64,000 nt of DNA from Cheilinus undulatus (Eukaryota; Chordata; Actinopteri; Labriformes; Labridae), in assembly GCF_018320785.1 (NCBI RefSeq), contig NC_054877.1, forward strand, positions 38,152,151-38,216,150. The letters run 5' to 3'. Position 1 is the stretch's first letter. Each line of letters opens with the position of its first letter. Below the pieces are notes generated by a model. That model was not told the DNA's origin. It saw nothing but the letters and a program-made list of their open reading frames with translations, and did not search any database. Made by a program: the position numbers and the translations under genes. Of this stretch, positions 36,544-61,962 are shown piece by piece.

Positions 36544-38420
36544 TCAGTTCATGTTGGAGTGGCTCTTCAGGTGTCTCCTCAGGTGGTTCAGGCAGGTGTA
36601 GGTCTTGGGGCAGATCTGGCAGTGGTACGGTCTGACACCTGAGTGGTTCAGCATGTGCTGCTTCAGCACACTTCCATCTGAGAAGGCTTTCCCACACTGT
36701 GAGCACACATAAGGCTTCTCTCCTGTGTGCACGCGCATGTGAACTGTCACCTTATGTGCCATGGTGAATCCTTTCCCACACACTGTGCACTTAAATGGCC
36801 TCTCACCTGTGTGGGTGAGCCTGTGGGTGCGCATGGCACCCATCTGAGAGAAAGCTTTCCCACAGTCAGGACAAACATGCGGCTTCTCTCCGGTGTGGAC
36901 CCGGGTGTGGCTCCTCAGGCCCCCTGCTGTTGAGAAACACTGTGAGCAGTGTGTGCACTGGTATGGCCGCTCTCCTGTGTGGGTGCGCATGTGCTGCTTC
37001 AGGTCGTAGCGGTTTCTGAAGCCACGGCCACACACCACACAGCTCTCGGGACGGTCATCATTGTGGCGTAGCTCGTGGTTGTTGAGGCATTTTTCAGACA
37101 GGAAACACTTTCCACACTCCTGACACTGATACGGTTTCTCATGATCGACTCTCTGATGATACTTGAGCTCACTGATGCCAGGGAACGTCTCATCACAGTA
37201 TCGGCACCTGAAGCGATGGTTGGGGCTGTATGGAAGTTGGTGGTCGCTCAGCTGATGGTTCCTCAGTAGGTGAGCCATCTTAAACGTCTTCCCACAATGA
37301 GAACACTCGTATTTCGTCAATAGCTGGACGCACTGGTGTCTGACTCGCTCATGCAGGGATCTGAACTGACAGCCACACTTGGTGCAGATGTGGGCAGCGT
37401 TTTTACACTTCCTCTTCCTGTGTCCCGACAGGTGAGCTTCTGTTCTGAAAGCTTTCCCACACTGAGAACATTTATAAGGCTTCACTGCTGTGTGGAACCT
37501 CTGGTGTTCCAGGAATTCAAAGCGGTACTTGAAGCTCCTTCCACACAGCGGACAGTTGTGTGTGACTCGTCCTCGGGGGTAGATGGCTTTCATGGATGTT
37601 TTCCTGGAGGACAAAGAGGATGAGGAAGTCCGATGAACTGAGCTACTCTTCCTATGTTTACCTCCACTCATTAATTTGGGAGTCTCCAGGTCACCAAGTT
37701 CTTCATGCCTCTGCTGGTGTTTAGACAGACACTTTGAGGTGATAAAGCTCTTCCCACACTGCTTACACTGATACGGTTTATCATGATCCACCTGCTGATG
37801 ATACTTCAGATCACCTATTCCCGAAAAGCCGACCCCACAGTGACTGCACTTGAAAAGCCGGCTCTGAATGTGAGTTAGCAGATGTTCCTTTAAGCTGCTT
37901 GACTTTTGAAAACTCTTCCCGCAGTGACCACAGTCGTAGTTACGGCCTCTCTTTGGACAGTGGTGTCTGAATTTGTCTAGGGAAGTTGGAAAACTGTTTC
38001 CACATTTGATGCACAGATATGCAGCATTTTTGCATTTTCGCAGCCTGTGACCAGCCAGCAGAGTTGCCGTCCTGAATGCCCTCCCACACTCAGAGCAGTT
38101 GTATGGCTGCAGCCCGCTGTGGACTCTCTGGTGCTCGATGAGGACTGAGTGATGCTTGAAGCATTTGTCACACTCAGGGCATTTATGCAGCCCTGATGTC
38201 TGTCTCCTGCGAGGAGAGGATGGCATGTCGCTCCTTTTCGGTGATTCAGGAAAGTCGGCTGATGTGGAAGGATTGGTAGATAGCTCCTCATCGAACATGA
38301 CAATCTGAGGAACGTCGTTGTTTTCATCATCACAAGCACTCGGGTGGGAAGCAATGGCCACTTCCAGAGATGGAGGGAGACACAGAGAGGGGATGAGCAG
38401 ATCATCTGATGGAAAGGGAG
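36544..38420 (-). CDS. Gene A exon 7 (18 zinc fingers)
   Basis: 625 codons plus 2 bases with the stop at 36544-36546. Acceptor CCCTGCAG. Fingers 1-6 and 7-12 are a duplicated block separated by a Ser/Lys-rich spacer. Fingers 13-18 have the canonical TGE(R/K)P(Y/F) linkers. Fingers 2, 3, 8 and 9 end in Cys rather than His. Confidence 0.95.
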
Positions 38421-41400
38421 CTGCAGGGAAAATATGAGAAGAAAACAACATCAAAATGTGAAATGTGAAAATTCTACATCTTCAACCAATATGAAGCTGA
38501 CAAGAGGAGTAAGGATAAAATAATATGCCCATCATAGTGAAAATATTACACACAAACATATGTGGTAAATATATAAAGCTGTGTACGAACCAACGCTACT
38601 CTTGGCCAGCTTCCCATGACACTGTTTGCTCTGGAGGAGAAATTTAAGGTCCTCTCCATTTGACACACACTGCATGTACTCCTCAAGAACTGCTGGGGCA
38701 GCGCTGATCCACGATGCAGTCTACATCAGAGAGACATAAAAAAATATGTTTTTGAAATTTCAAGAGATCCTGTGCTAAATGTCTTAACGTATCTTCAGAA
38801 ATTGCCTTTGCACCTGTTTGAAATCTGGAATTGGCAGCAGCTCCTCCAATCTGGTAAAGAATTCACTAACCAGAGTCTCCAGAGCTGTGTCAAAGTCAGG
38901 GCCGTACTCCACTGGAAAAACATTCTGTTGGAGAGAACAGAGAACTCAGCACATGGTGTCATCAGCAGTTCAGATATACTCGAGAGTTCACATTTGGTCA
39001 GGTAAATCTGTGTTCTGCTGATTAGAAAATTCATAGCTCAATACTGCACAATGACAACAAGTTCAATCTTAATCTAATTTTTACCTTAAGGAAATGTTCT
39101 CTGCCATCAGTGTCTTCAATAAGACCTTGCACTAGCTTCATAAAATTCGCCTCTGGTGCCTCAATCACAGGATCATTGGTCTGGTAAGAAAGCAGAGCAC
39201 CACAGTCATATTCATTTTTAAATATTCAAACTCTTCCTAAAATTTTTTACCAGACTATTAGGGTTAAAAGTCACTTAACCCTTTACCTACTGAGCCATCG
39301 CCGGCGCTGTGTTTTATATGTCTGGAGTATTATTACTGTAACTTTGTCAAAGTTTGTCCAATCAGAAAAATTCCATTGGCGTTGGAAAGCTGAGAATTGT
39401 GGGCATGTGTACATATATGGTTCATTACAGTAGTTGCAACCATATGACATGGGCATTCATAGCAAAACACCAGAAGTGTTGCGAGACCGCTACACGGATT
39501 CTCAACACTGTAACTCCTCGAAAGTTTGCTCAATCTAAAAATTCCAACACTGACAGAGAGCTGAGAATCTGTGCTTTCTGGAAATATATGATGTGTGGTA
39601 TATTTATTACGGTAATGTCGAACAGCACCGCGAAAATGGCAGCTTTGGCAGAAGACAAGTGAGAAAGGAGAGTGACGGAAGAGAGTAAAAATAGAGTGAG
39701 CGAGAGTGGTGTTTTGTTTTCAAAAAATAGCGTTAGATAGTGGCATTTGTGCATGTCTGTCATGTGCAATAACAATATGTTACTTGAGAATGTTGAGAAT
39801 GCACCCAGAGTCCCAGACTCAAAAAATGACTGGTGATTGTTCTAAACATGTATAGGTTCACATTTCAAATGTCAAATCAAAACTTCATGAGCAATAACAA
39901 AATTTCTTCTCATAAAAGCCATGAAAAACAAATTCTTTTTTGTGTTTTTCTTCTTTTAAACTGCTGACAATTCCATATAATGTGCAATAATCATTAACCA
40001 GATGTTGAAAAGTCAAGTTCAAGTACTCCTGGGAAAAGGGACCAAAGCTCTCAGACTTAGGGCATTTCCTGACCATTTTACAGCCATAATAACAAAATAT
40101 GTCCAAATTGCCATTTTTAGACTCAGTAGGTAAAGGGTTAAAAAGCAAAGAAAAAACAGGAAAAACATTTCCACAATCCCAGGCATTTATAACTTGTCAA
40201 CTGAATATTATATGATTGGGATAAAAGCCACACATTTGGACATTTCTGAACAAGAAACTGTTTTCAAATTAACTAAACAGTCATGTGAGTTACACAAGGG
40301 ATAATAAAAAATCCCTCACCTCCTCAATGCAAGACGTCCGGATTCTGTTCAGGTGGGTCTCAACAGCCTTCAGATCCTCAGGGTGCTCTGAGCGCAGCAG
40401 TTCAAGAGTTGTCTAGAGGGGAAATTAATTCAGCATTTCAATTGCTCCATCCCTGGTTTAAAAATGCAATACTATCAAAAAGTGCATCTTCATCTTGATC
40501 TGTCATATATACATTTACCTCATTTTTACATAATTTTGAACTCTGACTGGATAGCAATAATAAAATGATAGATGTTTCCATATAACAGCAAATAAAACAC
40601 AAGAGTTCTTTACAACTTAAAATTCTGTAATTCTTGTTAACAAATATCAGAAATTAAGAAATCTCAATTTGTACAAAAAAGCTCCAAATGTATTTGGTCA
40701 GTTTGCAAATTGTACAAGTACTTGTTTGCAGTTAAGCCTTTCTATTGTTCATTTAAAAAATTGAGTTTGTATTTTTTTTAAAACTTCATGTTTTGGAAAT
40801 GTGATGTAAATATCATGTACAATTATTGCAAATATCAATCATCTTCAGATTCACAATGTATTAATTTACTGTTTTATTATATCTAGCTTATCATATTTCA
40901 ATCATTTTAATTGAATTTATTTGTTTAGATCACTATTAGTTGTACCCTAGATTAGTGGTTCTCAACTGGTGGATCACAGCCTAATAATGGGTTGTGATTT
41001 GGGCCAAGAAAAATACATGTAAGATATACAGAAGCTCAAAAGAGGATGTATATCCATGAAGTTTTTGCACTCAATTTTTGCTGAGTACATTCCTCTAGAT
41101 CTTGATTAATTTATCTCTGTATGTTTGTATAACAAAGGCAGTTATCCCACAACAATGAGTTAATTCCTGAGATCTCTAGGAATAGCCAAAATGTCGCCAC
41201 TGGAAATGAAGTAAAATAAAATGTACACATGTCCTCTCAGGGCTCCTGTAATCAGGTCAGGTATGGGAGCATATTCCAGTTTGGCACTTTGCCACATCAA
41301 TCTTGGTCCTATACTTCTCTGACCTCCTCATGGCCATTGTCTAGGCCTGTGCCTGGCCCGTGCCCCATAATTCCAGGTATTTTCCTAACTGAGCCCTCTA

Positions 41401-43601
41401 CAATGCACACGGTTGCCCCTGCCATCTTGTCCAGCCCGCCAGGCCCTGGGTATCCAGTTCGTGAGCTGGATCAGGCCCAGGAAAGCGAACCAGGTACCCG
41501 TAGAGAATCCAATATTCAGAAACTGACCCTTCCCATCCCTGCTCTCCTGAGCATTTGACACACAGTCTTGCCAACAATACTCAAAAATGCACCGGAGAGA
41601 AGTTGTCACAAAGGAGTCCAGGCAGTGTCTCTGGCCATCAGTCAGTCCAGGCCTCACAAGAGTATAGTAGAAGCAGGGGGACCAAGGACCAAAAGACTCT
41701 GACTTTTATCATCATGCTAAGGCACCACAACACCTTGCCCAGCAAACTCATCACCTCATGTACTGTACAAGACCAAGTCTGAGGTTTATCTCAGCTTCGC
41801 AGTGAGTGGATTGATGGGTTATGCTGCCAAGGTAGGTCAACTGCTCTACAGCTTCCACGCTCTCACAATTCAACAGACACAGATTTGATGGAAACATCCT
41901 AGGCCTGGATCTTTGTTTTGGCCCAGCAGACGTGCATTCCTAATGTTTCAGCCTCCTCAGCAAGCTAAGAGGTCTCCACAAGCATCACAGCATCATCACC
42001 AAAGTACAGATCAGTGATCTGGACATCAACAAATGACACTCCACAGTTTGCTGCCTGTTACCTTCCCCAGTACCCAATCCATAAAGGTACCGAAGAGTGC
42101 AGGAGTTAAGAAACACCTCTGCCTCACTGGAGAATCAACAGGGAAGAAGTCAAAGATGGAGCCACTGGAATGATACATTTGATGGTACAGCTCCTGTAAT
42201 GACGTGCTTTGTATATTTGTTATGTCCTGTCTCTTTGTTTAGTTGCATGTTTTGTTTCATCTAAGGTTCAAATAGAAACATTTTTTTTAAATGAACTAGA
42301 GAAGCAGAATTTTACAAGGAAATTTCTAATCAGTGAGGAGGGTTGTGGGTTCTAAGGCTGGACCAGTTGATAGCCACTGCCCTAGATCACAGATAGCCTT
42401 CCTGAAATCGTACCACTTTAAAAAGCATACTTACAAGCATATGAAATGCACATATAAACACATAGTTTGGCACCAAAAAAATTATGTGTCAATCTATTTA
42501 GTAGTGGTGGAGAGTGATGGACTAAAACATTTTAAAATACATACCCTTGCTCTCAGGCCCAGTGAGAGCAGTCTCCCCTCTCTTTTGCTCATCAATTCAG
42601 GAACTGCATCTGTTACCATGGACACAAATTCCTCCAGTTTCCCATAGTGCTTTATGTTCCTCTGACGGACCACCTCCCACATCACTGCTGACATGAGGCG
42701 CAGCGGAGGGACCAGGAGGGCCAGGGAAGACAGGGGGACACTGAACTCTTCACAGAGAAAGACAAATGATGATCAGAACCATATTTACTTTCAATGCTGG
42801 GACATGCACACCACTTATGATGAGGAATAAGTGGATGTTTGGCTCCTGTTATATGCAAACAGTCAACGATGCCAGGAAGGCTTATTTTAGAATTTTTATG
42901 TAAATACTATTGTATAGCAGAAACATAGAAATTTAATTTCCCATCGGTGCAGCATCCCACTTCATTCACTTCCTGTATGGTCCCTACATTCTGGACGGTC
43001 GTCCCTATGATCAATCGCTCAGTGGGGTATTATATAATACACAAGACTTGTGTGCATACTCCAACCACTAAATGCTAAATCGTGGTCACTGGTAAACTTG
43101 TTGAACGGTTGAGTTAACATTCAGTTTTGCTGAACGATGTTTGATGATACCTTATGAGGAGGAACATCTGAGAGCTAAAAATTAACTGAGGAACGTTGAC
43201 AGTTAACGTTCACCAACGGCTAACTGTTAGCATAATACACGGCGCTTTATTTTTGATATGAACGGCTATTCATAACTGTCAGCGAAAACCAAACAGTTGC
43301 TTTGCATTCAATGCGTGTTTATAATAAGTCTTCGACGGCGGTTAATTAAGTTAATGAAAAGAAAGTAATCTCCGTTGGTTAATATTGCAAAGCGTGAACT
43401 AGCTAGTCACAGGGCTGTTGATGTTGCAAGGTTTTACCGGCTTATTTTAGGGGAAAAAACAATTCTTGTTCCAGGGATTAGTCAAGGCCTGTTCAACTAC
43501 GGCTAATCCTTCGTTATAGCTTTTTCACGAGCTGTATAAGTGGCCAAAAATGTAAAGCGTTTGCCGACCTCCGCAAGCTTATACATACCCATGTCGTTCA
43601 T
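36544..43601 (-). CDS. Gene A: TIN2-N-domain / 18-finger C2H2 zinc-finger protein
   Basis: Seven coding exons (43589-43601, 42545-42747, 40320-40412, 39085-39180, 38814-38924, 38591-38720, 36544-38420) join in frame to 840 residues. Residues about 5-185 resemble the N-terminal, TRFH-like domain of TIN2/TINF2: MSAVMWEVVRQRNIKHYGKL against human [20 protein letters not shown], and VEYGPDFDTALETL against QEYGEPFLAAMEKL. In TIN2 this domain binds TPP1 and TRF2. After an acidic, Ser/Pro-rich linker come 18 zinc fingers (about 293-837) in three blocks of six; blocks 1 and 2 are duplicates. It is probably a nuclear DNA-binding protein; target and partners are unknown. An in-frame TGA lies upstream of the ATG at 43601, which fixes the start. 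Introns 1 and 2 contain transposons. The family could be annotated elsewhere simply as gastrula/OZF-type zinc-finger protein. Confidence 0.88.
38591..38720 (-). CDS. Gene A exon 6 (end of TIN2-N-like region)
   Basis: 43 codons plus one base, TASWISAAPAVLEEYMQCVS onward. Donor GTTCGT is weaker than in B and C, but the position and phase agree. Confidence 0.82.
38814..38924 (-). CDS. Gene A exon 5 (TIN2-N domain)
   Basis: 37 codons, NVFPVEYGPDFDTALETL through LPIPDFKQ. This is the most conserved exon of the domain across A, B and C. Confidence 0.9.
39085..39180 (-). CDS. Gene A exon 4 (TIN2-N domain)
   Basis: 32 codons from TNDPVIEAPEANFMKLVQGL to REHFLK; one codon longer than in B and C. Confidence 0.88.
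39279..40137. mobile_element. TTAA-flanked piggyBac-like miniature element, copy 1
   Basis: TTAA at 39275-39278 and 40138-40141 flank exact inverted ends CCCTTTACCTACTGAG / CTCAGTAGGTAAAGGG. TTAA duplication and CCC ends fit the piggyBac superfamily. It is 859 bp with no transposase frame, in an intron of gene A. A close copy lies at 50873-51705. Confidence 0.85.
40320..40412 (-). CDS. Gene A exon 3 (TIN2-N domain)
   Basis: 31 codons from TTLELLRSEHPEDLKAVETH. Acceptor CTCTAG, donor GTGAGG, phase 0 at both ends. Confidence 0.88.
40953..42379. mobile_element. hAT-like element with exact 8-bp target duplication
   Basis: CCCTAGAT at 40945-40952 is repeated at 42380-42387. Inside are inverted ends: AGTGGTTCTCAACTGGT at the left and, read in reverse, AGTGGCTATCAACTGGT at the right. 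An 8-bp duplication and these ends fit the hAT superfamily. It sits in intron 2 of gene A's coding exons (between exons 2 and 3) and carries a nested LINE fragment instead of a transposase. Confidence 0.85.
41560..42200 (-). mobile_element. LINE reverse-transcriptase fragment nested in the hAT-like element
   Basis: On the minus strand, broken frames read like FFPVDSPVRQRCFLTPALF, then MDWVLGKVTGS and TDLYFGDDAVMLVETS, resembling the palm of fish non-LTR reverse transcriptases (usual FADD is FGDD here). Stops and frameshifts show it is dead. GC-rich sequence at 41230-41560 may belong to the same insertion. Confidence 0.7.
42545..42747 (-). CDS. Gene A exon 2 (TIN2-N domain)
   Basis: 203 bases, the same length as in B and C. 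Reads PLRLMSAVMWEVVRQRNIKH and ends LSLGLRAR. Acceptor GTGAAG, donor GTATGT. Confidence 0.88.
43589..43601 (-). CDS. Gene A exon 1 (start, 4 codons plus 1 base)
   Basis: ATG AAC GAC ATG G followed by GTATGT. The upstream in-frame TGA makes this ATG the first. The second ATG corresponds to the 4-base start exons of genes B and C. The split codon gives Glu with exon 2. Confidence 0.75.
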
Positions 43602-44563: not shown

Positions 44564-45891
44564 TTAAACAACACTGTGAGTTTTCAAATGTGTCTTTAGG
44601 TGACTGGTGCATGTGTATGTCTTTGCACACAGATGACAAGCGTATGGTCGAACCCCTGTGTGGGTCATGTTGTGATTTTTCAACTCAACACCACTTGAAA
44701 ACCCCTTCCCACATTCTGAGCAGACGTAAGGACGCTCCCCAGTGTGGACGCGCATGTGGAGTGTAAGTTTGCTCGTCTTGATGAATGCCCGCCCACATAC
44801 AGTGCATTTGTACGGCTTTTCCCCCGTATGGGTACGTCTGTGAATCTGCAGCTCACCAGCTGAAATAAAAGTCTTACCACAGTTAGAGCATAGAAATGGC
44901 TTTTCTCCAGTGTGAATCCTTATGTGTATATTCAAGTTCCCAGACATGGAGAAACGTTTCCCACAGTACGTGCACTCAAACGGCCTCTCTCCTGTGTGAC
45001 TGCGCATGTGCACTTTCAGTTCCGGTTTGTTCTTAAAACCCTTGCCACAGCTTGGACACACCTCTGTCCTCTTTTGCTGATGACGTATCTCGTGAGCTGC
45101 CAAAGTGGTAGCTGAGCTGAAGAACTTCCCACACTGCCCGCACTGGTTGGACAGCTGAGGTGGATGGATCTTCTGGTGGTTCCTGAGCTCACTTATGCTG
45201 GAGTAAACCACCCCACACTGTCTGCAAGTATAGGTCTGGCCTTGAGTGTGAGTCAGTTCATGTTTACCCAACAACTGCAAATTCCTATATCTCTTTCCAC
45301 ACTGTGAACAGTCAAGCTTTTGCCCACATCTGTGCTTTGATTTGTCCTGTGCAGTCTGAAAGCTGTCCCCACATTTAATACAGATATAAGCTGCTTCTGT
45401 GCACTTAGTCCTCCTGTGAGCTGACAAATCAGATGCCCTTCTGAAGGCCTTCCCACACTGAGAGCACTTGTAAGGATTTTCTCCTGTGTGTACCCGCTGA
45501 TGCTCCACTAGTTCGCATCGGTAAATGAAGCACTTTCCACACTGAGCACATTTGTGAGCAACTCTCTGACGTGGACGTTGGTTGATAACAGAGCCAGACA
45601 ATGCAGGACTCTGAGAAGATGTAGAAGGAACTTGGAAGGGAGGTAAGGCTTCTTCGTCGTCCTCACTGCATTTCTCTGCAGTTGTCTGATCTGCATTGCT
45701 GCACTCCTCAACCTCAGATGGCCATTCTGTGTCCTGTTCTCCACAGTCTCCTATCTTCACCACCACCACCTCAATGGGACTCTGGTTTTCAAATGTTTGC
45801 GTATTTGACTCCACATCTCTTGTGCCAGTCTCTTTCCTAGAGAGAGGCAGAGATAATGATGACAAAAGCCGCTGCTCGGATTGAGAGGGGG
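44564..45891 (-). CDS. Gene B exon 7 (12 zinc fingers)
   Basis: 442 codons including the stop, plus 2 bases. Acceptor TTTTTCAG. Starts APSQSEQRLLSSLSLPLS. The two six-finger blocks match gene A's block 1 (or 2) and block 3. Confidence 0.95.
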
Positions 45892-48800
45892 CTGAAAAAG
45901 AAGTTTAAAAGGGAAAAATTAGTTAAATCTCATTACCTCCTAAGAGAGTTTTAATGTTATTGCACTAAAACTGCATCTGAAAAAAACAGTTAACTTCTGA
46001 ATTTGACACTTAGTTTTAAACCGGTTTATTGTGCCCCAAACCAAAAGGATCAATAAAAAAAGACATTTTTCTATATAAATATTTCTAGGTAAGTCATTCC
46101 ACAGTATTCTAAAAGCTGGATTTTCAGCTGCTACATATTCCAAATCTGCATAAAATATGATACGAAGATAAAAAGACCAATGTCCTCCTGCTACATACTT
46201 ACCATTGGTATAGATCTCAGGCTTTTTATCACAGCAGGCCTTGCTTTTGAGAAGAAGCCTGAGGTCGTCTTCTCTGGACGGACACTGCATGCACTCCTCC
46301 AGCACAGAGACTTCATCATTGATCCACACAGCAGTCTTTAAAAAACAGAACTATTTTCTTAGAGAAAATACACCAATAGTCTATGGAAACATTAATAAAC
46401 CTGCAGTTTTTGATGGCAGAGGATGTTTTTACCTGCTTAAAGTCTGGTATATGTAGCATTTCTTCCAGTCTGGTGAGGAACTCACAAAGCAGATTCTCCA
46501 GCGCTGAATCAAAGTCAGGCCCGTACTCCACAGGAAACACGTTCTGTTAAAATAGATTTTTTAACACTTAAAGCACATATCCAAAACCAGCTGAATTTGA
46601 CTGTAGTGAAACAATGAGACCAAAGCAGCCACACACCTCAAGGAAATGTCCTCTTTCTTTTGGGTCTTCCACGAGTCTTTCAACAAGCCTCACAAAATTC
46701 TGTTCAAGAGCTTCATCTCTTTGTAGAACCTGCTGGGTTGAATAGAATTACATGTCAACCACAACTGAAACATTAAATATCAACCATAGAGAAAAAATAA
46801 CACACCTGTTTTGAGCTGGATGGCAGCAGGCAGCTCAGGCAAGCTTTAGCAACTGTTTGATCCTCTGTCTGGTCAGAACTTAAGAGCTGTAAAGTCATCT
46901 GAAAAGAAAAATATATTTTAAGTCACTGATTATGGGAACAATTCAGAAATCCCACATTGAAGTTGATCAATACGACCATTTAAAGCAGTGATTCTTAACT
47001 GGTCTAGACTCAGGACCCACCACCTCCTGAATGAGCAATTGCTACCCAAATTCCTGAAAAAATTTTCAACAAATTATATTATTTTAACAAAGAATATTGA
47101 GGTTTGCACCATACATGAAACAAAACATAACTGACGGAAGGGATAGGACAAGTGTGTCATCAAAACCCTTAACTGACATGCATGGACACATTGCATTTTT
47201 TCTGTTTCCTATGGCAAGGCGACATTTTGGATGTGTGCTTGAGAAACAAGCATTTCAAAATAAGGAAACCAGTTTTGTTTTCCCTGGAAAAAAGTTAAAC
47301 AAGATAAAATCTTGAGAAATGTCCAGAAATACTGTATACTCATTGCTACAATAAAACAGAGGGAAATCAAATTTGTTTGTCTGTTTCAAACTTACATCGT
47401 GGACTTCATCCCATAGCTTCTTTCAGGCACCCTCTAAAACAGCTTTGTGACCCACTTTTCTGGCATGTTACAATCTTTCAGGTTTTAAACATTTCAAATA
47501 TGCCTACTCTGAATATAAAATAATACATGGACCTGCCAAACTTCTATTAAGTGAATGTAAGCTGAAAGCACAACCACTAGACAGTGTTAATTTCGTCGAC
47601 TAAAATGTTCAATGTCAACCTTTATTCCATGAGAAAGTATAGACTAAGACTGGCCAAAAATAGATCTTTGATAGATCATTGATGACTAAAACTAAATAAA
47701 AGTAAGTTTATTCTTAGTCAAGATGACAAACTAGACTCAAATGTTTTTTTTTTATTTTTATTTTTGTGGACATTCAAAATCCATGATATTTCTCCACTGT
47801 GGGTATTCTGTCAAAATACAATCTATCTGTAGCTGTTCTGCCTCTCAGCTGTAGAAAGCAGGAACCCAAGGTTTGACAAAGTACATAGAGCACACTAAGA
47901 GGATCTGGTACCAGATTTCGGCAAGACAATAAATGCTTGGACTAAAGGTTAAGACTAAAATGTGAGGACGTTTATGGACTAAAACTACACTAAAATTAAC
48001 AGTACCATCAGGACCACGGCTAGAGGTGACTGTGAGGTGCTGTCCAGACATCATCTTTGGACAGACTGTGCTGTCAGTTAGGGACGGTAACATATGGACC
48101 AATATACCATCAAGATTTTTGGGAAAGCCCTACATCACCACCTTTAAAAGCCATCTCAAAAAACTGGCTTAAAACAAATCAAACCTGCACTCACTGCTTG
48201 GCAGATGTACCAATCCGCCTGGCATTGCATTTCATATTTATCTTTCCATTTTTGTGCAAAACATGCTTACATATACAAATGTGTGCATGCATTGCGCCAG
48301 CCTGTTTTATTTTCTATAACAACTTTATGCATTTGTGACTACTGTTTCATCTGTATGCATGATCTTATTTTTGAATGCATGTGATTTCAATGTTGTATTA
48401 GTTACTTTTTTTACATCTGCTATAATGGCTATACGTGCTTTCTTTTATATAACTGTGATACTTGACCTGTGTCTGTAACACAAATGTGGAAAATAACCAT
48501 AAACTGCAGAAAGAATGTAACCCCTTGCACCTGAAATAGCACTTCATGAAATGCACTTTAAACCATGCACTTTATTCAGCACAGTTTACATTAATCTTGT
48601 TATTGCATGTTTGCACACTGTAAGTATTGTTGTTCTGTCTCTTTATGTGCTACTTGCCATGGGAAGTAAATTTGTTGTTTTGCAAACTCTGGCATGTTTA
48701 CATTTGTCTTTTATGCTTACGTTTGTTATTGCTCTCTCTCCTTAGATTAAATTATAATAGATTAAAAATAGATTAGATTAAAAATTATAATAATAATGAA

Positions 48801-49762
48801 TATCATGGCATTATTACTTTCAGTTTGAATGTGATTTCATCTTTTTAATGTTCTAAAAATAGTCTGCTACCTTTGCTCTTAAGCCCAGAGTTAGCAGCCT
48901 CATCTGTCCGTCTGTCAGGAGGTCAGGGATGACCTCAGATACCATGGATATAAACTCTTCCACTCTCCCATAATGCTTCATGTTTCTCAAACAGACAACT
49001 TTCCACATGACAGCTGACATCACCCTCAGAGGAGGAACCAGGAGTCTCAGAGAGGAGAGAGGCAGGGGACCCTCTGCAGAGAGGAAACAGAGGTATTATT
49101 GTCATGACTAAAAAACTTTGCAATAACTTGTAAAAGTGTTACAAACATCAGCTCATTTCACAGACTTATAACACACCAACAGGCTGGTTGCTTCTCTTTT
49201 TCCACACAATTTATATCCTGTTAGACCAAGCAGTAGTCATAACTATAGCAAAGACAGGTAACAAAGACAGCATGAAGCTCTGTTTTATTCTAACAGATTA
49301 TAACAGAAGCGAGTTCATGTAATTTTAAGTAGGTGTTTTAATGCTGACACCCCAGTGTGTTAAACTAAGGTTTAACAGAGTAATTCTTGCCTGGCTTGAA
49401 AACATAATAATTTAAAAATGAACTAAAAAAAGACCTGCATATAAATCTAAAAGTATTGTTCATGTGCAGTGAACTGTCTGGAACTGCACTGGCTGAATTA
49501 TCATTAGTTAAAATAAACCAGCACAAACTAAAGCCACGCTTGAAATGCAAAATAAAGAAAGTCTCTTAACGAATGGTTAAACTTCAGCCTCCCACTCATT
49601 ATGAATTATAAAATAAAATTCATGCGGCATGAATTTCATTCACTTTCTCTCAGTATGACCATTTGCAACACATGAATGACACGAAGTTATTGTAGGCAAA
49701 CAAGCTAACACGCCGAAAAAATCAAACTGCTGCAATCCCAATAAAACAAAAACGTTACCCAT
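44564..49762 (-). CDS. Gene B: TIN2-N-domain / 12-finger C2H2 zinc-finger protein
   Basis: Seven coding exons (49759-49762, 48871-49073, 46806-46898, 46637-46729, 46433-46543, 46203-46335, 44564-45891) join in frame to 654 residues. Residues 2-180 form the same TIN2-N-like domain as gene A (PLRVMSAVMWKVVCLRNMKH, VEYGPDFDSALENL). An acidic linker (DDEEALPP) precedes 12 zinc fingers. Fingers 7-12 are canonical with TGERP linkers; 2 and 3 end in Cys. It is intact: no stop or frameshift. Likely nuclear and DNA-binding, with the N-terminal domain a candidate partner-binding module. It lies head to tail with A and C, and all three arose by duplication, judging by shared exon lengths and phases. Confidence 0.88.
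46203..46335 (-). CDS. Gene B exon 6
   Basis: 44 codons plus one base, TAVWINDEVSVLEECMQCPS onward. Donor GTAAGT. Confidence 0.88.
46433..46543 (-). CDS. Gene B exon 5 (TIN2-N domain)
   Basis: 37 codons, NVFPVEYGPDFDSALENLLC through LHIPDFKQ. Confidence 0.9.
46637..46729 (-). CDS. Gene B exon 4 (TIN2-N domain)
   Basis: 31 codons from VLQRDEALEQNFVRLVERLV to ERGHFLE. Donor GTGTGT. Confidence 0.87.
46806..46898 (-). CDS. Gene B exon 3 (TIN2-N domain)
   Basis: 31 codons from MTLQLLSSDQTEDQTVAKAC, aligned with gene A exon 3 and gene C exon 3. Confidence 0.87.
46985..47060. repeat. hAT-type repeat end
   Basis: CAGTGATTCTTAACTGGTCTAGACTCAGGACCCACC looks like a worn hAT-type end in the long intron of gene B. 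Right end not found. Confidence 0.35.
47582..48003. repeat. DNA-transposon-like repeat with inverted ends
   Basis: Left end CAGTGTTAATTTCGTCGACTA and right end CTAAAATTAACAGT are roughly inverted, and the inside has many GACTAAAACTAAA words, a common fish repeat type. Confidence 0.55.
48871..49073 (-). CDS. Gene B exon 2 (TIN2-N domain)
   Basis: 203 bases, EGPLPLSSLRLLVPPLRVMS to LTLGLRAK. Acceptor CTCTGCAG, donor GTAGCA. Confidence 0.88.
49759..49762 (-). CDS. Gene B exon 1 (start codon plus one base)
   Basis: ATGG followed by GTAACG. Same layout as gene C. The split codon gives Glu with the next exon. Confidence 0.7.
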
Positions 49763-51810: not shown

Positions 51811-53174
51811 TTAGACAGCACTGTGAGTTTTTAAGTGTCTGTTCAGGTGATTGGTGCGTGTATATGTCTTCCCACACAGCTGACACACATATGGTCGAAC
51901 ACCTGTGTGCTTCAGGTTATGCCTTTTCAACTCTGTCCCTGTTTTAAACCTCTTCCCACATTCTGAACAACCATAAGGACGCTCACCAGTGTGACCACGC
52001 ATATGAACCTTTAAATGGCCCGCCATCGTGAACCCTTTCCCACATGCAGTGCACTCGTATGGCCTCTCTCCTGTATGCAGACGTCTGTGAACCTGCAGCT
52101 CACCAGCTGAAACAAACGCCTTGCCACAGTCAGAGCAGAGAAACGGCTTGTCTCCGGTGTGGGTCCTTACGTGAATAGTGAGGTTTCCAGGTATAGAGAA
52201 ACGTTTCCCACAATGCGCGCACTCATACGGCTTCTCGCCTGTGTGACTGCGCATGTGCTGTTTCAGTTGATTTTTCGTCTCAAAAACTTTGCCGCAGCTC
52301 TCACACACACAGTTTGGACATACCCCTGTCCTCTTTCGCTGGTGGCGCATCTCATGGATTTTCAAAGTAGCTGCTGAGCTGAGGAACTTCCCACATTGCC
52401 TGCACTGGTTGGACAGCTGAGGAGGATGAGTCTTCTGATGGTTTTTCAGCTTACCTATGCTGGGGTATACCAGCCCGCACTGTCTGCATGTGTAGGTCTG
52501 AGTCTGGGTGTGGGTCAGCTCATGTTTCTCCAGCAGGGACTTTGTCTTAAAGCTCTTTCTACACTTTGAACAGTCAAGCTTTTGTTCACTCAGACCACAT
52601 CTGTGCTTGAACTTGTCCTGTGCAGTCTGGAAGCTGTCCCCACATTTGATGCAGAGATAAGCTGCGTCTGTGCACTGAGTCTTCCTGTGGGCTGACATGT
52701 CAGATGACGTCCTAAATGCCTTCCTACACTGAGAGCATTTGTAAGGATAGTCTCTGGTGTGAACGCGCTGATGCTCCCGGAGCTGATAGCGATAAATGAA
52801 GCACTTTCCACACTGAGCACATTTGTGTGCAACTCTCTGACGTGGACGTCGGCCAATCACAGAGCCAGACAGAACAGGACTCTGAGAAGACGTAGAGGGA
52901 GGCTGACAAGTGGGTAAGGCTCCTCTGTTGCTCTCCCTGCATTCCTCTGCTGGTGTTTGCTCTGAAGTGCTGATCTGTACAATGTATGTTTCCTCATTAG
53001 ATGCCAACCACACATTCTGTATCCCACTGGATTTTGTCTTCTGAAAATAATCATGCTCAGATTGTCTTTGGTTTTGTGTCTGGAGGTTAGACGTCACATC
53101 TTTGGCATTGGTCTTTTGCAGAGAAGGAGGAATAGATAGTGATGAGAGAAGTCGCTCCTCTGAGTCAGAAGAAA
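51811..53174 (-). CDS. Gene C exon 7 (12 zinc fingers)
   Basis: 454 codons including the stop, plus 2 bases. Acceptor TTTAAACAG. Begins VSSDSEERLLSSLSIPPS, matching the start of the gene B finger exon. Confidence 0.95.
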
Positions 53175-56100
53175 CTGTTTAAAAAGAGAAGGCAAAAACG
53201 TTACCAAAGGGCTTTCAAAAACTGATTGCACTTATGATTACGAAAGTTTGTCATTTCACAATTTCATTTGTTGATTTTCTTGCTTTAAATTGAAGTATTT
53301 GGTTAAAATATGACAGAAAACAGTCTAAATCACTAGATCTACATCATTCACTAGGAAAGAAATGTTCATATTATCTTTTTTGACTCACAATCTTTATTTC
53401 ATTTTAAAATTTTTAATAATCAAACAAAGCGTTGACTGACTTTTAAAGAAAATATCTCATTACCCTCTCCAATCTCAACCAATACAAATTTCTATGAATT
53501 ACTTTAAACAATTTGATCGATTTTGATACACAACAAATTCCCCTGGAATTGAAAACCCCCTAGGGTGCATTTCCCTGTTGACAGAGCTGGTTTAGGACTC
53601 CCCAGATCTATCAATTACTATTCATTTAGCTTGTGACTTAACACACAGTGGTCCCCTCTGTCAGAAAGGGGTTCTCCATGGCTAAGTACAGAAAGCAGCA
53701 TATGTCTACCTCTTACTTTACTGAAAAGATTCATTTATAGAACGGTGTTGCTCACAGGGATTATCAAAGCTTTGATTTAATATGAAATACATTTTAAAAA
53801 TCATATCTAATCTAACACCACCTGATCCACGCTGCAGAGCACATTTACACTGAGTGGGAAACTTGCTGTAGGAGCCAATGAGCACTACTTTATAAATAGG
53901 AACCAATCTTTGTCCGGGCAGGTGTTGCGCCTGGTAGTAAAACAGTTTTTGACGGCTGAAGAAACCGGTATGGTGAAATGTTTGTTCGTGTTGGATGAAT
54001 GTTGGATTACGATTGCTTATATTGCACAAAGAAGTTTTGGAGCAATAAATGCACAGATTATTGCAACACAAGCTATTGTCTAGGACTCTCTTCATCCGAT
54101 GTGGTAAAGTGATGTGGTCAGCGCGTCAATTAGATAAATCCTGGTGAAGCACCTCAGGGGCTTCAAGCATTGGCTTACCCTCTACACTTACATACAAAAG
54201 CTCAGACCTGGCATGGGATCTGAGCGTATCGTACCCTCATGTCTAGATTGATTAATGCCGATCTGCGCATGGAAATAATAATACACCCAAATTTCTTGCG
54301 TACCCACGTTTGATAAATTTTGTCTTGTTATCTACCCGCTTCCTTGTTCTCCTATCTCAATGACAGCAACACGGAGATAAATAAGAGCTTGGCTCAACAA
54401 AAAAGAATTTGTAAATTTCAGTACTACTGATATCTGATATCCGATATTGTGCATGCCTAAAATTAACCATTTATTTTAAGAGCCCTTATCTTTACTAATT
54501 AAATATAATACTGCTTTAAAAGTAGGGGGAGAACACTTCATTATCATTCATTCATATGAATGTGTGGTTCATTCATTTAGCTCCTGGCTGATAGCTCAGA
54601 CAGATTTTACCTCTTGAATCCTTGTTGGTCATCCTCCCTCCACAGGCCTTGCTCCTGAGCAGAACTCTGAGGTCGTCCTCTTTGGGCACACACTCCACCA
54701 GCACAGAGGTCGAATCACTGATCCACACTGCAGTCTTTAAATGACAAACAAAACTTGACCATATAAGCTTGAACCAGAAAAATAATCCCATGTTGCAGTT
54801 TTAACAGTATAAGAAGATTTCACCTGCTTGAAGTCTGGTATATGCAGCATCTCTTCCAGTCTACTGAAGAACTCACAAAGCAGATTCTCTAAAGCTGAAT
54901 CAAAGTCAGGCCCAAACTCCACAGGAAACACGCTCTGTTAAAACAGAAAACTTTAACTCAAAGCATGGTCATAAAGTTTACTCCAGCTAACAAACACTGA
55001 GGTAGAAGCAGAGACGCACCTTGAGGAAATGTTCTCTTTCTTTTGGGTCCTCCAGGAGGTTTTGAACAAGCCTCACAAAGTTCTCTTCAAGAGCTTCATC
55101 TCCTGGACAAACCTGCTCAGTAAAATATGATAACTTGTCAAATACATCTAATGCTGCTTCAACCTACAGGACTTAATATAATTGGGAAAAAAATTCCTCC
55201 ACCTGGTTTGAGCTAGATAGCAGCAGGGTGTTTAAGTGGGTTTTCACAGCTGTGAGATCCTCTGGTTGTTTAGAACTTAACAGCTGTAGCATCATCTGGA
55301 AAAGCCAAGGGAAAAGTCAGAGCTGGGGTTTGTATCAAAATATGACAAGATTTAAACAAAAGAAAATGTTGTTTTAGGCACGTTTTCATCAACTGCTGTT
55401 AAACAAGTTTGAGAGGACAAAAGGTATAGCAGTCGGTGGCCCTGCTTACAAAAAAAAAAAAAAACACTGCAGAAGATGCTCAGTACCATGTTATGATCAG
55501 TATCTTGGACAACAAAGGAGGATTTTATATTTAGAAATTAGGATTTTTAAACAGATTTTTTCTAAACCTTTTTTGCTCTTTGAAGAGTTACTTGGAAAGC
55601 CAAAGGTGCATGCTTAAGCATGTTAATCAAGGGAGTTCATGGTTTATTTGCTAACTGTGTTTTCACTGCAAAAAGATACATTTTCCTTTTAACAACTTTT
55701 TTTCTTGCACCTCCTCCAAGGGTATACACTTTTTCTACTTTTTAAAAAAAGTTTCAAAGTTTTTTTTGTTTTGTTTTGGTTTTTTTTTTCAAATTTGGAG
55801 CATTTCGGGTCCATTTTTTTTTGTTTGGCACAAATTGAAAAAGTGCCTAAAACCAGAGGTAGAGAGGCCAAGAATTACACTGTGGAGCTACAGCAGTTAC
55901 ACTTCAGTTTGTTTCCTTTTATATGAAATTATGCTTTCTTTCTGAAATAAAAAGACTGAACATTGCAGGAGGAACTAAACCATTTAATGAATATTGTGCC
56001 ACAACTCTGTTTTCCTGGGAGATGTGAAGTCTACAAATGTGATGCTAAACACTGCAATATATTTGTTTTAAAGTTAAAATAAATGTAAAAAAGTGAAAGG

Positions 56101-57596
56101 GATAGCCTTCCCATGAGGCTGTATGATGTACTTATGAATAGAAAGTGTATTATCAACAGGAAATGCCAGTCCTTTAGGAAGGGACCAGCCTTAGTGCAGC
56201 CAAGGAGCCTAAGCTATACAACATTGAAGACAAACTTAAAGAAAGCACAGAACAGGGTTTAATGAGTTATAAAATAATGTTGGGATAAAAGTATGCTACA
56301 TTGAAGAAATTCTCAGCACTTTATTTATCTGCTCGTAAGCGGCTTAATTTTAGCACTACCTCTTTAGTGCACTCTTGCCTAACTATTCATGACCTAAGTT
56401 CTATTTGACCCTACACCAGAGAAAACTTTTTAAAAATCTATTTCTAAATCAAGGAATTAATGGATGTCCATTTAATCAGAGAGACATAGGTTTTTCACAG
56501 AGGACAGCAAAAATATTTAATGATTCAAAACAGATATTTCCTGCAAAACATAATACACAATAAAAATTAAATAAAAATAATGCAAATGTGACAAATTTAT
56601 TAAGATAAAAAAATCAAACTGGATCTGTTACCCTTGCTCTTAAGCCCAGAGTTAGCAGCCTCATCTGTCTGTCTGTCAGGAGGTCAGGGATGGCCTCAGA
56701 TACCATGGATACAAACTCCTCCACTTTCCCATAATGCTTCATGTTTCTCAGACAAACAACCTTCCACATGGCAGCTGACATCACTCTCAGAGGAGGAACC
56801 AGGAGCCTCAGAGAGGAGAGAGGCAGGGGACCCTCTGCAGAGAGGAGGGGACAGAAGTATTATTAATACCAAACCATATTAATACTATTATTCACATGCA
56901 GTTCAGGCCTCAAGCTTAAGTCCTTAAAACACACATTTTGTTTGTTCTGTGGAGTGACAAATCATGCTTCTGTTGGGATGCCAGATGGACGAGTCTGGGT
57001 TTGGCAGACCACTGACCTCAACCCCACTAAGCACCTTTGGGATGGACCGGAATGGAAATTGCAAGCCAGGCCTTCTGGTCCAACAGCAGGTCCTGATCTC
57101 ATAAATGCTCTACAGAACAAATGGGTACAAATTCCCACAGAAACACTAAAAATCTTGTAGACAGCCTTCCAAAAAAGAGTGGAAGTGTGTTATAGCCGCA
57201 AAAGGGGGACCAGCTCAATATCAAAGTACATGTATTTGAATGTCATTACAGTTCCTATTGGTGTAATGGTCAGACGGCTGAATACTTTTGTCCATATAGT
57301 GTATCTGTGCATTTCAGAGAGTACTGTTTTTTCAGTATGAAGAGAGAAAGTTTAGTTTAGTTAACTTGGCTAAACTGATAGAAACATGGGAAGGACGGTT
57401 TCTCCATAATGTTTGATATGTCTCTCCATGACTTAAGTGTATATAATTGATAGAAAATGGGGAAAAACATGAAGAACTTTCACCAACAGGTCACTTTAAC
57501 ACCACCAGTACAGAAAGGAAGTTAGTGTTAGCACAGACGCTAACAACATCAAAACAAACTGTTATGACCCAACTAGAAATAAAAACACTTACCCAT
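51811..57596 (-). CDS. Gene C: TIN2-N-domain / 12-finger C2H2 zinc-finger protein
   Basis: Seven coding exons (57593-57596, 56632-56834, 55203-55295, 55020-55112, 54824-54934, 54611-54734, 51811-53174) join in frame to 663 residues. The N-terminal TIN2-like domain (2-180) is very close to gene B. After the linker come 12 zinc fingers; finger 7 follows a small extra Cys pair (VCPNCVCESC), probably a local duplication. No stop or frameshift. Base-contact positions in fingers 7 and 10-12 differ strongly from gene B, so the DNA target is probably different. Gene D is its closest relative: linker and first fingers are nearly the same. Confidence 0.88.
53175..54610. other. Gene C last intron
   Basis: About 1.4 kb, AT-rich, no coding signal. 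Its first bases resemble the sequence upstream of the gene D finger exon, showing the duplication extended into the intron. Confidence 0.6.
54611..54734 (-). CDS. Gene C exon 6
   Basis: 41 codons plus one base, TAVWISDSTSVLVECVPKED onward. Donor GTAAAA. Confidence 0.87.
54824..54934 (-). CDS. Gene C exon 5 (TIN2-N domain)
   Basis: 37 codons, SVFPVEFGPDFDSALENLLC through LHIPDFKQ. Confidence 0.9.
55020..55112 (-). CDS. Gene C exon 4 (TIN2-N domain)
   Basis: 31 codons from VCPGDEALEENFVRLVQNLL to EREHFLK. Donor GTGCGT. Confidence 0.87.
55203..55295 (-). CDS. Gene C exon 3 (TIN2-N domain)
   Basis: 31 codons from MMLQLLSSKQPEDLTAVKTH. Acceptor TTCCAG, donor GTGGAG. Confidence 0.87.
55296..56631. 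other. Gene C intron 2
   Basis: AT-rich, with poly-A and poly-T runs. Nothing else seen. Confidence 0.6.
56632..56834 (-). CDS. Gene C exon 2 (TIN2-N domain)
   Basis: 203 bases, EGPLPLSSLRLLVPPLRVMS to LTLGLRAR. Acceptor CTCTGCAG, donor GTAACA. Confidence 0.88.
56945..57302 (+). mobile_element. Tc1-like transposon end fragment
   Basis: Contains CTGACCTCAACCCCACTAAGCACCTTTGGGATGGACC and ends AATACTTTTGTCCATATAGTGTA, the 3' end of a well-known fish Tc1 family. It lies in intron 1 of gene C, antisense to the gene. Confidence 0.8.
57593..57596 (-). CDS. Gene C exon 1 (start codon plus one base)
   Basis: ATGG followed by GTAAGT, a full-consensus donor. Phase fits exon 2 exactly. Confidence 0.75.
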
Positions 57597-57771
57597 TTTG
57601 TTCACCCGAAAAGCTTGGACAGCAGAAATACCACAGGAACGTTTCCAGAGTGAAAATTTCCTTCATGAACAAGAACGAACTGAAAATTATTGGGAAGTTT
57701 CTAATCAGTAAGCCAGCTGTTAGTTCTTCTTCGTTGGTATCATTAGCGGACAACAGGAGAATGTGACGTAT

Positions 57772-57789
57772 TACCGCCCCCTGCTGTTT
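57772..57789 (-). promoter_or_regulatory. CTCF-like motif upstream of gene C, shared with gene B
   Basis: The same 18 bases as at 49934-49951, 176 bases before the gene C start codon. Flanking sequence has diverged more, which suggests selection or a recent shared promoter. Confidence 0.5.
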
Positions 57790-57949
57790 TGAGCAGTCAC
57801 AGTTCAGGAGAGGCTCTGCAGATTGCTGAGCAGCGACAACTGGCTCTTTACGGGTCAAAACTGTGACTGATTTGTTTGATTTCCTTGAAACAGATGTTGT
57901 CTGGATGGGGATATGTGTTGCTTTAAACTTTTTTTTTATATACTTTTCA

Positions 57950-58880
57950 GTATTGATAATACCTTTATGTATAAGCTGCCGATGCCATAGGCGTCAATGC
58001 ACCTTCATACCATCAGAGATGCAGGCTTTTGGACTGTGCTCTGAAAACAAGCTGCATGTTCCCTCCCCTCTTTAGTTTGCAGGACACTGTGTCCTTAGCT
58101 TTCAAAAGCAGTTTTACATTTTGATTCATCTAACAACAGAACTTTTTTCAATTTTGCCTCTGTACATGTTAAATGAGCTTCGGCCAAGAGAAGATGTGGC
58201 GTTTCTACATGTTCACACGTGGCTTCTTCTTTGCATGATACATCTTTTACTTGCATTTGTGGATGGCACAGCAAACTGTGTTGACAAAGAAGTGTTCCTG
58301 CACCCATGCAGTCATTTCCAGTACAGAAATATGCCTGTTTTTTTATGCAGTAGCCTACCGTCTGAGGACCAGAAGATAACAAACATCCAATATTGACCCT
58401 CGGCCTTGACCCTTGAGCACAGAGATTTCTCCAGTTTCTTTGAATATTTTGATATTATGTACTGTAGATGGTGTGATATTCAAAGTCCCTGCATTTTAAC
58501 AGAGAAACATTTTTCTGAAATTGTTCCACAATTTTTGGATGTTGCTTTTCACAGACTGCTAATCGTAACTTCTGAAATGCACATTTTATATCCTGTCATG
58601 TTCCTAATCTGTTGCCAATTAACCTAAGTAGTTGCAAAGTACTCCTCCAGCTGTTTTTCCACTCATACCACCTTACATTTCCAGCCTTTCGTCGTCCCAT
58701 CCCTACTTTTTGAGATCTGTTGTTGCCATTAAATTCAAAATTAACTCGTGCTTTTCATGAAATGGTAAAATGTCTAAGATTTTTTTGTTTTATTGTAAAA
58801 AAAAATATGGGTTTATAAGTTTTGAAGATCACTGTTTTTATTTACATTTAACAGAGCCCCAATTTTTTAATTGGGGTTGT
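57950..58880 (-). mobile_element. Decayed fish DNA transposon
   Basis: Contains GAGAAGATGTGGCGTTTCTACATGTTCACACGTGGCTTC, TTGACCCTTGAGCACAGAGATTTCTCCAG and the end CCCCAATTTTTTAATTGGGGTTGTAG. This wording belongs to an abundant fish DNA-transposon family whose transposase would read on the minus strand. Class not assigned. Confidence 0.65.
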
Positions 58881-59269
58881 AGTCTGTGTTGCCCATGTTT
58901 CTTACTTAAAATAAATGTGTGATCAAAATAATAAATATTATAAGTTTTACATATTTTATGTGCACTCACAAACACAGGGTCAAAACATTGTGATTATTAA
59001 CTCTGTGGAATTGTGAAGCTTGAGTATCAAGCCCTCTTTACTCCCGGGGCTAGGCTTTTTGAGGTGTTTGGTGGTGCTGTCATATTTTTCTGATTTGTTG
59101 AGTTTCTTTTCTCTATTGGTCCTTCTGTCTTCTTGCTCCTTTGCACATGCTCCCACTTGTGTTTATTATTCAGCAATATCACAATATGTAATGCTCCTTT
59201 ATGCTGACAAAATTCAGTAATACTCAGTCACTGCCAACAAATTGAGTGCTGTAAAATCCCTTATTCATT

Positions 59270-60351: not shown

Positions 60352-60461
60352 AAGAACAAAAATGTCATATCCATCACTTGTATAACAACCATAAAAATAT
60401 GATCTTTCATAACAGATCATAGGAATCAAACTATCTTGATTTGGATGATACTGTGAGTTTT

Positions 60462-61962
60462 TCAGTGATTCTTCAGGTAAGTGTTGCGTTTGAATGTCTT
60501 AGCACACAGCTGACAAGCATATGGTCGCACTCCTGTATGTGTCCTCTTATGGTTTTTCAACACAGCCCCTGAAGAAAACCTCTTTCCACATTCTGAGCAG
60601 ATGTAAGGACGCTCGCCGATATGGGTGCGTGTATGGAGTGTAAGTCTGTGCGCCATCATGAACCCTTTCCCACATGTAGTGCACTTGTATGGCCTCTCTC
60701 CTGTGTGGGTGCGTCTGTGAATCTGCAGGTCACCAGCTGAAACAAACGCCTTTCCACAGTCAAAGCACAGAAACGGCTTTTCTCCAGTGTGGATCCTTTT
60801 GTGTACAGTCAAGTTTCCAGACCTAGAGAAACATTTCTCACAATACGTGCACTTAAATGGCCTCTCACCAGTGTGAGTGCGCATGTGAGTCTTAAGTAAA
60901 CTTGCTGATATGAACTCTTTCTTACACGAGGCGCACTTGTATGGCCTCTCTCCTGTATGGAGGCGTCTGTGAACCTTCAGCGAACCAGCTGTAGTAAAAG
61001 CCTTGCCACAGTCAGAGCATAGAAACGGTTTTTCTCCGGTGTGGGTCCTTATGTGAATAGTTAGTGATGAAGGCATAAAGAATCCTTTCCCACAGTATGT
61101 GCACTTCAGTGTCTTCTCACCTGTGTGACTGCGCAGGAGCTGTGTCAGTGCACTTTTGTTCTGGCAAACTTTGCCACAGCTCTCACAGACCACTGTCCTC
61201 TTTGGTTGGTGACACATCTCCTGGACAGTTGAAGCAGCTGCTGAGCCAAGAAGCCGCATGCACTGGTTGGCCATCTGAGGCAGATGACTTTTCCAAATGT
61301 GGGTCAGCTCACGCCTCCCCAGGAGGGACATTGTATCAAAGCTCTGTCCACAATCTGAACAGTCAAGCTTTTGTGCAGTTTGAACACACCTGTGCCCTTT
61401 CTTGTCCTGTGCAGTCTGAAAGCTGTTTCCACATTTCATGCAGAGATAAGCTGCGTTTGTGCACTTATGCTTCCTGTGAACTGCCAATTTAGATGCCGTC
61501 CTGAGCGCCTTTCCACACTGAGAGCATTTGTAAGGATAGTCTCTGGTGTGAACGCACTGATGCTCCAGGAGCTGATGGGGTACATGAAGCACTTTCCACA
61601 CTGAGCACATTTGCGTGCAGCTTTCTGATATGGACGTTGACCAATCACAGAGCCAGACAGAACAGGACTCTGAGAAGACATAGAGGGAGGCTGACAAGTG
61701 GGTAAGGCTCCTCTGTTGCTCTCCCTGCATTCCTCTGCTGGTGTTTGTTCTGAAGTGCTGATCTGTACAATGTATGTTTCCTCATTAGATGCCAACAACA
61801 AATTCTGTATCCCACTGGATTTTGTCTTCTGACAATAATCATGCTCAGATTGTATTTAGTTTTGTATCTGGAGGTTAGACGTCACATCTTTGGCATTGGT
61901 CATTTGCAGAGAAGGAGGAATAGATAGTGATGAGAGGAGTCGCTCCTCTGAGTCAGAGAAAA
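60462..61962 (-). pseudogene. Gene D: damaged zinc-finger exon, relative of gene C
   Basis: Aligns over its whole length with the finger exon of gene C, including acceptor TTTAAACAG and VFSDSEERLLSSLSIPPS-like start. Lesions seen: a CAA-to-TAA stop at 61856-61858 early in the linker; a one-base loss at about 61577-61582 inside finger 1; loss of finger 5 and part of finger 6 near 61215-61290; a zinc ligand lost in fingers 4 (His to Arg) and 7 (His to Leu); and a stop at 60462-60464 that removes the last residues. The later fingers are canonical and remain open, and a three-finger block is duplicated relative to C. No TIN2-like exons are seen to the right within the window. A short finger-only protein from an internal start cannot be excluded. 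Confidence 0.82.

Follow-up and report, generated by a model that had tools for sequence, protein, structure and literature searches.

Three tandem genes of Cheilinus undulatus place a domain resembling that of a telomere protein, TIN2, in front of an array of C2H2 zinc fingers. What are the resulting proteins, and where did they come from? The genes, which we call A, B and C, lie on the minus strand of a 64,000-nucleotide stretch of DNA (C13:38.15-38.22 Mb; hereafter, the window). Their exons were modelled under splice-site and phase constraints, and they are accompanied by the last exon of a fourth gene, D. An earlier note on this DNA had proposed that A, B and C unite the N-terminal domain of TIN2 (gene tinf2) with fingers. 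We consider it reasonably probable that A-C are sequence-specific DNA-binding proteins that arose from duplicated tinf2 genes, with the TRFH-like domain kept as a docking module and combined with a C2H2 array.

Identity of the N-terminal domain

The joined exons of A, B and C match the Pfam family TINF2_N (PF14973) over positions 1-149 of its 149, with E-values of 9.5e-46, 2.3e-39 and 1.4e-43 and scores of 156.3, 135.6 and 149.2 bits, respectively, against a curated cut-off of 29.4. Gene A was scanned with its fingers, and B and C as the domain only. Because the Pfam model itself could contain genes of this kind, we also searched the sequences of solved structures. The domain of gene A has a single match there, the TRFH domain of human TIN2 in 5XYF (5XYF_A, 7.7e-13), and an 18-row profile of the family has the same single match (1.1e-21). 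The two kinds of match rule out a chance resemblance, and homology to the TRFH-like domain of TIN2 is strongly supported. Both the identification made in the earlier note and the profile match that it anticipated for the joined N-terminal part are thereby confirmed. On this evidence A-C belong to the TINF2_N domain family, yet are not TIN2.

Exon structure of genes A, B and C

In each gene, five small exons are followed by one large C2H2 exon, with consistent phases. Exons 1-5 measure 203, 93, 96, 111 and 121/133/124 nt (A/B/C), and exon 6 measures 1877/1328/1364 nt. Exon 1 takes 2 nt of a codon, exons 2-4 are in phase 0, and exon 5 leaves 1 nt, to which exon 6 gives 2. The layout of five domain exons and one finger exon given in the earlier note was recovered independently to within a few bases, and the agreement of phases among the three genes is seen in our models as well. 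The lengths listed there (203, 93, 93/96, 111, 124-133) needed slight correction: exon 3 is 96 nt in all three genes, the 93-nt form, with its acceptor 3 nt downstream, being the second-best model in B and C; exon 5 of gene A comes to 121 nt, its donor being weak, and can alternatively be read as 130 nt. As for the claim that the domain is spliced in frame to the fingers, phase and co-linearity agree with it, as read from genomic sequence rather than RNA.

A family of loci across the genome

We searched the 1.17-Gb assembly (46 contigs) with the TINF2_N profile and obtained at least 40 exon matches, which fall into at least 21 loci: eight on C13, two on C20, one on C22, nine on C23 and one on C24. 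Exon 1 has a length of 203 nt in 16 of the 21 loci and of 200 nt in the other five, and in every locus it is flanked by an AG acceptor and a phase-0 GT donor; 20/21 loci have an exon 4 of 111 nt, and exon 5, modelled in 15 loci, is 124 nt in 11 of these. A same-strand C2H2 array lies downstream of the domain in 19/21 loci, and the idea of a multi-copy family combining this domain with DNA-binding arrays, put forward in the earlier note, is thus upheld. In this genome, most TINF2_N matches are not TIN2. The most divergent locus is L023, whose exons 2 and 3 are placed weakly. At another locus (L017, C23:22.2633-22.2640 Mb), domain exons 1 and 4 share one 286-codon open frame that spans the introns; an intron-retaining form could be translated, although this open frame is probably due to chance.

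Two loci depart from the pattern. One of them (L019, C22:15.32 Mb; together with L031, C22:15.3125-15.3295 Mb, minus strand) has exons 1-5 and the start of exon 6 as in the finger genes, and no finger cluster was found downstream within about 14 kb. Its exon 6 runs on into a frame that is long and charged and has no fingers; further along lies a piece with the sequence YYKTKHGTYVPTLREY, which presumably resembles the C-terminal part of human TIN2L. Pfam named neither piece. In a search of the genome, this tail-like segment has a strong match solely at its own C22 locus (1.1e-19; next 0.68), and hence none among A-C. Given the TIN2-like tail piece and the lack of a finger cluster within that distance, we take this locus to be the probable true tinf2.

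In the probable tinf2, exon 6 starts with GDSILESLSLPPSGR (also given as GDSILESLSLPP), and the finger genes open theirs with related letters: DDLLIPSLCLPPSLE in A, EQRLLSSLSLPLSRK in B and EERLLSSLSIPPSLQ in C. With a pattern drawn up after viewing these sequences, the motif was located close to a phase-1 acceptor in 15 of the 21 loci, and was not found in L010, L012, L014, L015, L017 and L023. Because the openings are related, it appears that in a copied gene the fingers took the place of what follows this opening in tinf2 exon 6, and the family looks like a set of tinf2 copies with the tail swapped for a DNA-binding array. A single origin of the finger genes is not what the domain tree establishes. 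Only 5 of the 19 inner branches of this 22-row tree are well supported, the branch leading to human TIN2 is very long, and the probable tinf2 falls inside the family without firm support; for these reasons the tree leaves unsettled whether there was one fusion or several, the order of events and whether tinf2 was the source.

The other exceptional locus (L013, C23:19.36 Mb) has no finger cluster downstream within about 30 kb. Seven Myb/SANT-like frame pieces lie there instead, on the same strand (with L028, C23:19.344-19.363 Mb, minus strand), each matching PF13837 above the cut-off (best 3.3e-19, one partial). A phase-compatible path leads from an exon-6 donor through a 29-nt exon to the first Myb acceptor, the phases being read from the sequence; a donor pattern search gave none for the first two Myb exons. 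A second kind of DNA-binding array may therefore be fused to the TINF2_N domain here. Further Myb/SANT-like exons occur at C23:19.725-19.732 Mb (L042 with L015), between two TINF2_N finger genes, and since Myb/SANT-like exons also stand separately in this way, the Myb join is less sure than the finger joins.

Zinc fingers and sequence change

By a strict pattern, gene A has 16 C2H2 fingers and genes B and C have 11 each, in every case within one large exon; the Pfam match to zf-C2H2 in gene A has E = 9.4e-63. The first ten strict fingers of gene A appear by eye to be two copies of a five-finger block, and the array may thus have grown by internal duplication.

We estimated rates of change by the Nei-Gojobori method, taking exons 1-4 as the N-terminal domain; the pairs overlap and are not independent, and gene conversion among tandem copies may distort the ratios. 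The ratio of nonsynonymous to synonymous change (dN/dS) of the domain is 0.16-0.42 in 11/11 pairs. At the four DNA-contact positions of the fingers, dN is 1.5-3.2 times that of other finger positions in all seven pairs. The domain and the finger scaffold are thus conserved, and the contact residues change faster. When the fingers of B and C are compared in order, 11/11 pairs differ in at least one contact residue; between gene A and these two there is no one-to-one alignment of fingers.

A proposed origin and function, and its alternatives

It may be helpful to set out the proposed history as a whole. Duplicated tinf2 genes would have given rise to A-C, with a C2H2 array, inside exon 6, standing in for the rest of the protein. 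The TRFH-like domain would most likely serve as a helical peptide-docking module that brings a putative partner to DNA chosen by the fingers, a role that can be likened to that of KRAB, SCAN or ZAD in other poly-finger families. The targets might be regulatory sequences or transposons under the control of these proteins. A wider version of this idea, in which a tinf2 docking domain was joined to two kinds of array (C2H2 and Myb/SANT) to form a KRAB-like system that places TIN2-type or new partners at rapidly changing targets, e.g., transposons, is speculative, and we offer it only tentatively.

Several observations weigh against the proposal. The joining of domain to fingers is read from phase and co-linearity in genomic DNA, and whole joins were built for seven finger loci out of 19 (A, B, C, L018, L024, L025 and L026); of these, the L018 and L024 models reach the end of the examined DNA before a stop codon. 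Some copies besides D may be broken, given that the finger array of L027 is spread over two frames and that the fingers of L023 form two clusters set apart, the first of them followed by a stop. As to the rates of change, dS is saturated (>1) in 4 of the 11 domain pairs. For the contact residues, dN/dS is 0.29-0.69, below 1, in 6/7 pairs (those computable), and dS too is raised at these positions relative to other finger positions in most pairs; consequently, the faster change does not demonstrate positive selection. Finally, of the two residues required for TPP1 contact, A-C retain the acid alone. In human TIN2, F152A or E153A abolishes the binding of TPP1 and TRF2 (PMC8262337). We set the human numbering by counting on the alignment, and the letters at A15, F152, E153 and K160 agree with that source. 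At the positions of F152 and E153, gene A has S-E, genes B, C and D have C-E, and the probable tinf2 has W-E. An aromatic residue plus acid is kept in 5/21 loci (L010, L013, L014, L017 and the probable tinf2), and four copies at C13:22 Mb have K-K or R-K.

These residues bear directly on the possibility that A-C are telomere factors, i.e., variants of shelterin whose domain binds TPP1 or TRF2 and whose fingers attach to telomeric or subtelomeric DNA. The homology of the domain to TIN2 is clear, the aromatic-plus-acid pair survives in four paralogues besides the probable tinf2, A-D keep the acid, and a TPP1 gene is present in the genome. It is also the case that TTAGGG repeats are bound by other zinc-finger proteins (PMC5309834). 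However, each of the four tandem genes has just one residue of the F152/E153 pair, and because E153 alone is retained, telomere function is not indicated for A-C. Their use of the TPP1 contact probably differs from that of TIN2, and their partner would not simply be TPP1; E153 is retained, and a changed partner surface in TPP1 is possible. After the domain, some copies have LxLPP or LxIPP, which slightly resembles the TRF1-docking consensus F-x-L-x-P-x-(K/R)3 (PMC12635197), but the match is not exact: A has LCLPPSLE, B has LSLPLSRK and C has LSIPPSLQ, each without the Phe and without the basic run, and LSLPPSGR of the probable tinf2 likewise fails the consensus. The idea that the fingers of A-C read the telomeric repeat was rejected by a crude test, in which no finger shares its contact quartet with the finger two places on, as might occur in an array reading a six-base repeat. 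The TRF family profile PF08558 had no match in the genome, nor in the controls, and is hence uninformative. Taken together, we regard a telomeric role as improbable. What survives of the shelterin-type module with fingers that the earlier note envisaged is the TIN2 homology and the finger family, whereas the aromatic residue at F152 is lost in A-D and FxLxP is not matched exactly.

Two further alternatives concern the domain itself and its connection to the fingers. The domain might now serve chiefly for dimerisation, like SCAN or ZAD, instead of docking foreign peptides. Dimerising N-terminal domains do occur in other poly-finger families, and the invariant columns of the domain, which are mostly Leu, Phe or Pro, suit a kept fold while being uninformative about the partner. 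The TRFH domain of TRF1, moreover, dimerises (PMC12635197). The matched structure speaks against carrying this over to A-C, in that the TIN2 TRFH domain reportedly acts as a monomer in 5XYF; we find dimerisation as the main role doubtful. It could also be argued that the N-terminal exons belong to one gene and the finger exon to its neighbour, the two not being joined in messenger RNA, since the joining was read from genomic DNA, the gap between exon 5 and the fingers amounts to kilobases in some copies, and the exon 5 donor of gene A is weak. Such an arrangement would have to explain why the order, strand and phase of the exons agree in A, B, C and four more modelled copies, why the finger-bearing exon 6 of the modelled copies opens with a motif found at the same place in the probable tinf2, and why domain and array are paired in 19/21 loci. 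We consider it very unlikely. The duplication of tinf2 genes with retention of the domain as a docking module is the explanation that we carry forward.

Features of the window

Gene D straddles the edge of the window, and its other exons lie to the right, in locus L009. Position 61962, with which the earlier note ended the cluster, is the acceptor of its exon 6. The exon-5-like segment of D was not found in the expected frame, and exon 6 has an in-frame stop after 34 codons; gene D is therefore broken.

It might seem natural that exon 1 begins the protein. This is doubtful: 2 nt of a codon enter exon 1 in all 21 models, and the probable tinf2 has no Met ahead of the domain in exon 1. An ATGG before a GT donor occurs 689-923 nt upstream of exon 1 in all four of A, B, C and D, by pattern only, and gene C has a second, poorer candidate further up, at 58307. 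Because the 1 nt left by ATGG fits what exon 1 needs, the first coding exon may consist of the start codon and one base only. Among the other 17 loci, in the upstream stretch examined, L016 has a candidate ATGG, six have only ATGA or ATGT, and ten have none.

Table 1. Modelled exons and candidate first coding exons of the tandem genes, in window coordinates
Feature	Position	Strand	Basis
Gene A, candidate first coding exon end, ATGG + donor gtatgt	43589..43592	-	Pattern only, 845 nt upstream of exon 1
Gene A, exon 1, 203 nt, TINF2_N start	42545..42747	-	Splice model and Pfam
Gene A, exon 2, 93 nt	40320..40412	-	Splice model
Gene A, exon 3, 96 nt	39085..39180	-	Splice model
Gene A, exon 4, 111 nt, NVFPVEYGPDF...PDFKQ	38814..38924	-	Splice model
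Gene A, exon 5, 121 nt	38600..38720	-	Splice model
Gene A, exon 6: shared motif LLIPSLCLPP, linker, 16 C2H2 fingers (strict pattern)	36544..38420	-	
Gene B, candidate first coding exon end, ATGG + donor gtaacg	49759..49762	-	Pattern only
Gene B, exon 1, 203 nt	48871..49073	-	Splice model and Pfam
Gene B, exon 2, 93 nt	46806..46898	-	Splice model
Gene B, exon 3, 96 nt	46637..46732	-	Splice model
Gene B, exon 4, 111 nt	46433..46543	-	Splice model
Gene B, exon 5, 133 nt	46203..46335	-	Splice model
Gene B, exon 6: shared motif, linker, 11 C2H2 fingers (strict pattern)	44564..45891	-	
Gene C, candidate first coding exon end, ATGG + donor gtaagt	57593..57596	-	Pattern only
Gene C, exon 1, 203 nt	56632..56834	-	Splice model and Pfam
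Gene C, exon 2, 93 nt	55203..55295	-	Splice model
Gene C, exon 3, 96 nt	55020..55115	-	Splice model
Gene C, exon 4, 111 nt	54824..54934	-	Splice model
Gene C, exon 5, 124 nt	54611..54734	-	Splice model
Gene C, exon 6: shared motif, linker, 11 C2H2 fingers (strict pattern)	51811..53174	-	
Gene D, exon 6, nine fingers (strict pattern), in-frame stop in linker	60441..61962	-	

To the left of the finger cluster, what looks like a collagen VI-type gene is suggested by von Willebrand A and Gly-X-Y-like pieces on the minus strand (9381-9617, 19545-19772, 27071-27361 and 27380-27610). Two von Willebrand A exon pieces match PF00092 at 30.9 and 24.3 bits (cut-off 23.8); the Gly-X-Y-like pieces were recognized by eye, and the one that was scanned had no Pfam match. 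On the plus strand, 18054-18482 may hold a Tc1-like transposase remnant (PF13358, 9.8e-06, 25.9 bits, under the cut-off of 28.6). Positions 25598-25766 are a tandem repeat of TTACTTTACTCTTAG in about 11.6 copies. Rfam and tRNA scans gave no match within the window.

Comparison with known systems

The closest relative of the domain is that of TIN2/TINF2, which it matches over its whole length, in both the TINF2_N model and the 5XYF sequence, and the exon layout and exon-6 opening motif of the probable tinf2 in this genome are common to the finger genes. In contrast to TIN2, A-C have C2H2 fingers in place of the C-terminal part, the aromatic residue at F152 is lost (in D as well) and there is no exact FxLxP; at the level of the family, 19 finger loci stand beside one probable tinf2.

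Judged by title and the start of the abstract, the papers listed in our search of the open-licence literature include none on a union of TINF2_N with zinc fingers. Automatically generated database records may show such an architecture. Large finger families usually carry KRAB, SCAN, BTB or ZAD as accessory sequences, and FiNZ is a further one (PMC10547256). A shelterin-derived domain would be an unusual addition to them, and one for which a structural template and partner peptides are known, so that its partner is directly testable. If our reading is true, a domain of a telomere protein has left the telomere. Such a departure of the TIN2 domain would be in line with the non-telomeric role that has been argued for zebrafish TRF2 (PMC8887477).

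The nearest functional analogues of A-C would be the KRAB-, SCAN- and FiNZ-finger genes. In tetrapods/mammals, KRAB and SCAN finger genes are likewise poly-finger genes with a conserved N-terminal effector domain, and both families form tandem clusters and change fast at DNA-contact residues. They differ from A-C in that the corresponding domain of A-C is a TIN2 homologue; neither KRAB nor SCAN was listed in the Pfam scan of A-C, to which the comparison with their profiles was limited. The KRAB-like finger genes of ray-finned fish also combine many fingers with a conserved N-terminal effector domain (PMC11603059). The FiNZ genes of cyprinid fish (Wells et al. 2023, PMC10547256) are similar in being clustered poly-finger genes with an N-terminal accessory sequence. 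However, FiNZ is a sequence of 28 residues, described as having no known relatives, whereas the TINF2_N domain found here comprises approximately 150-200 residues in five exons and is a homologue of TIN2.

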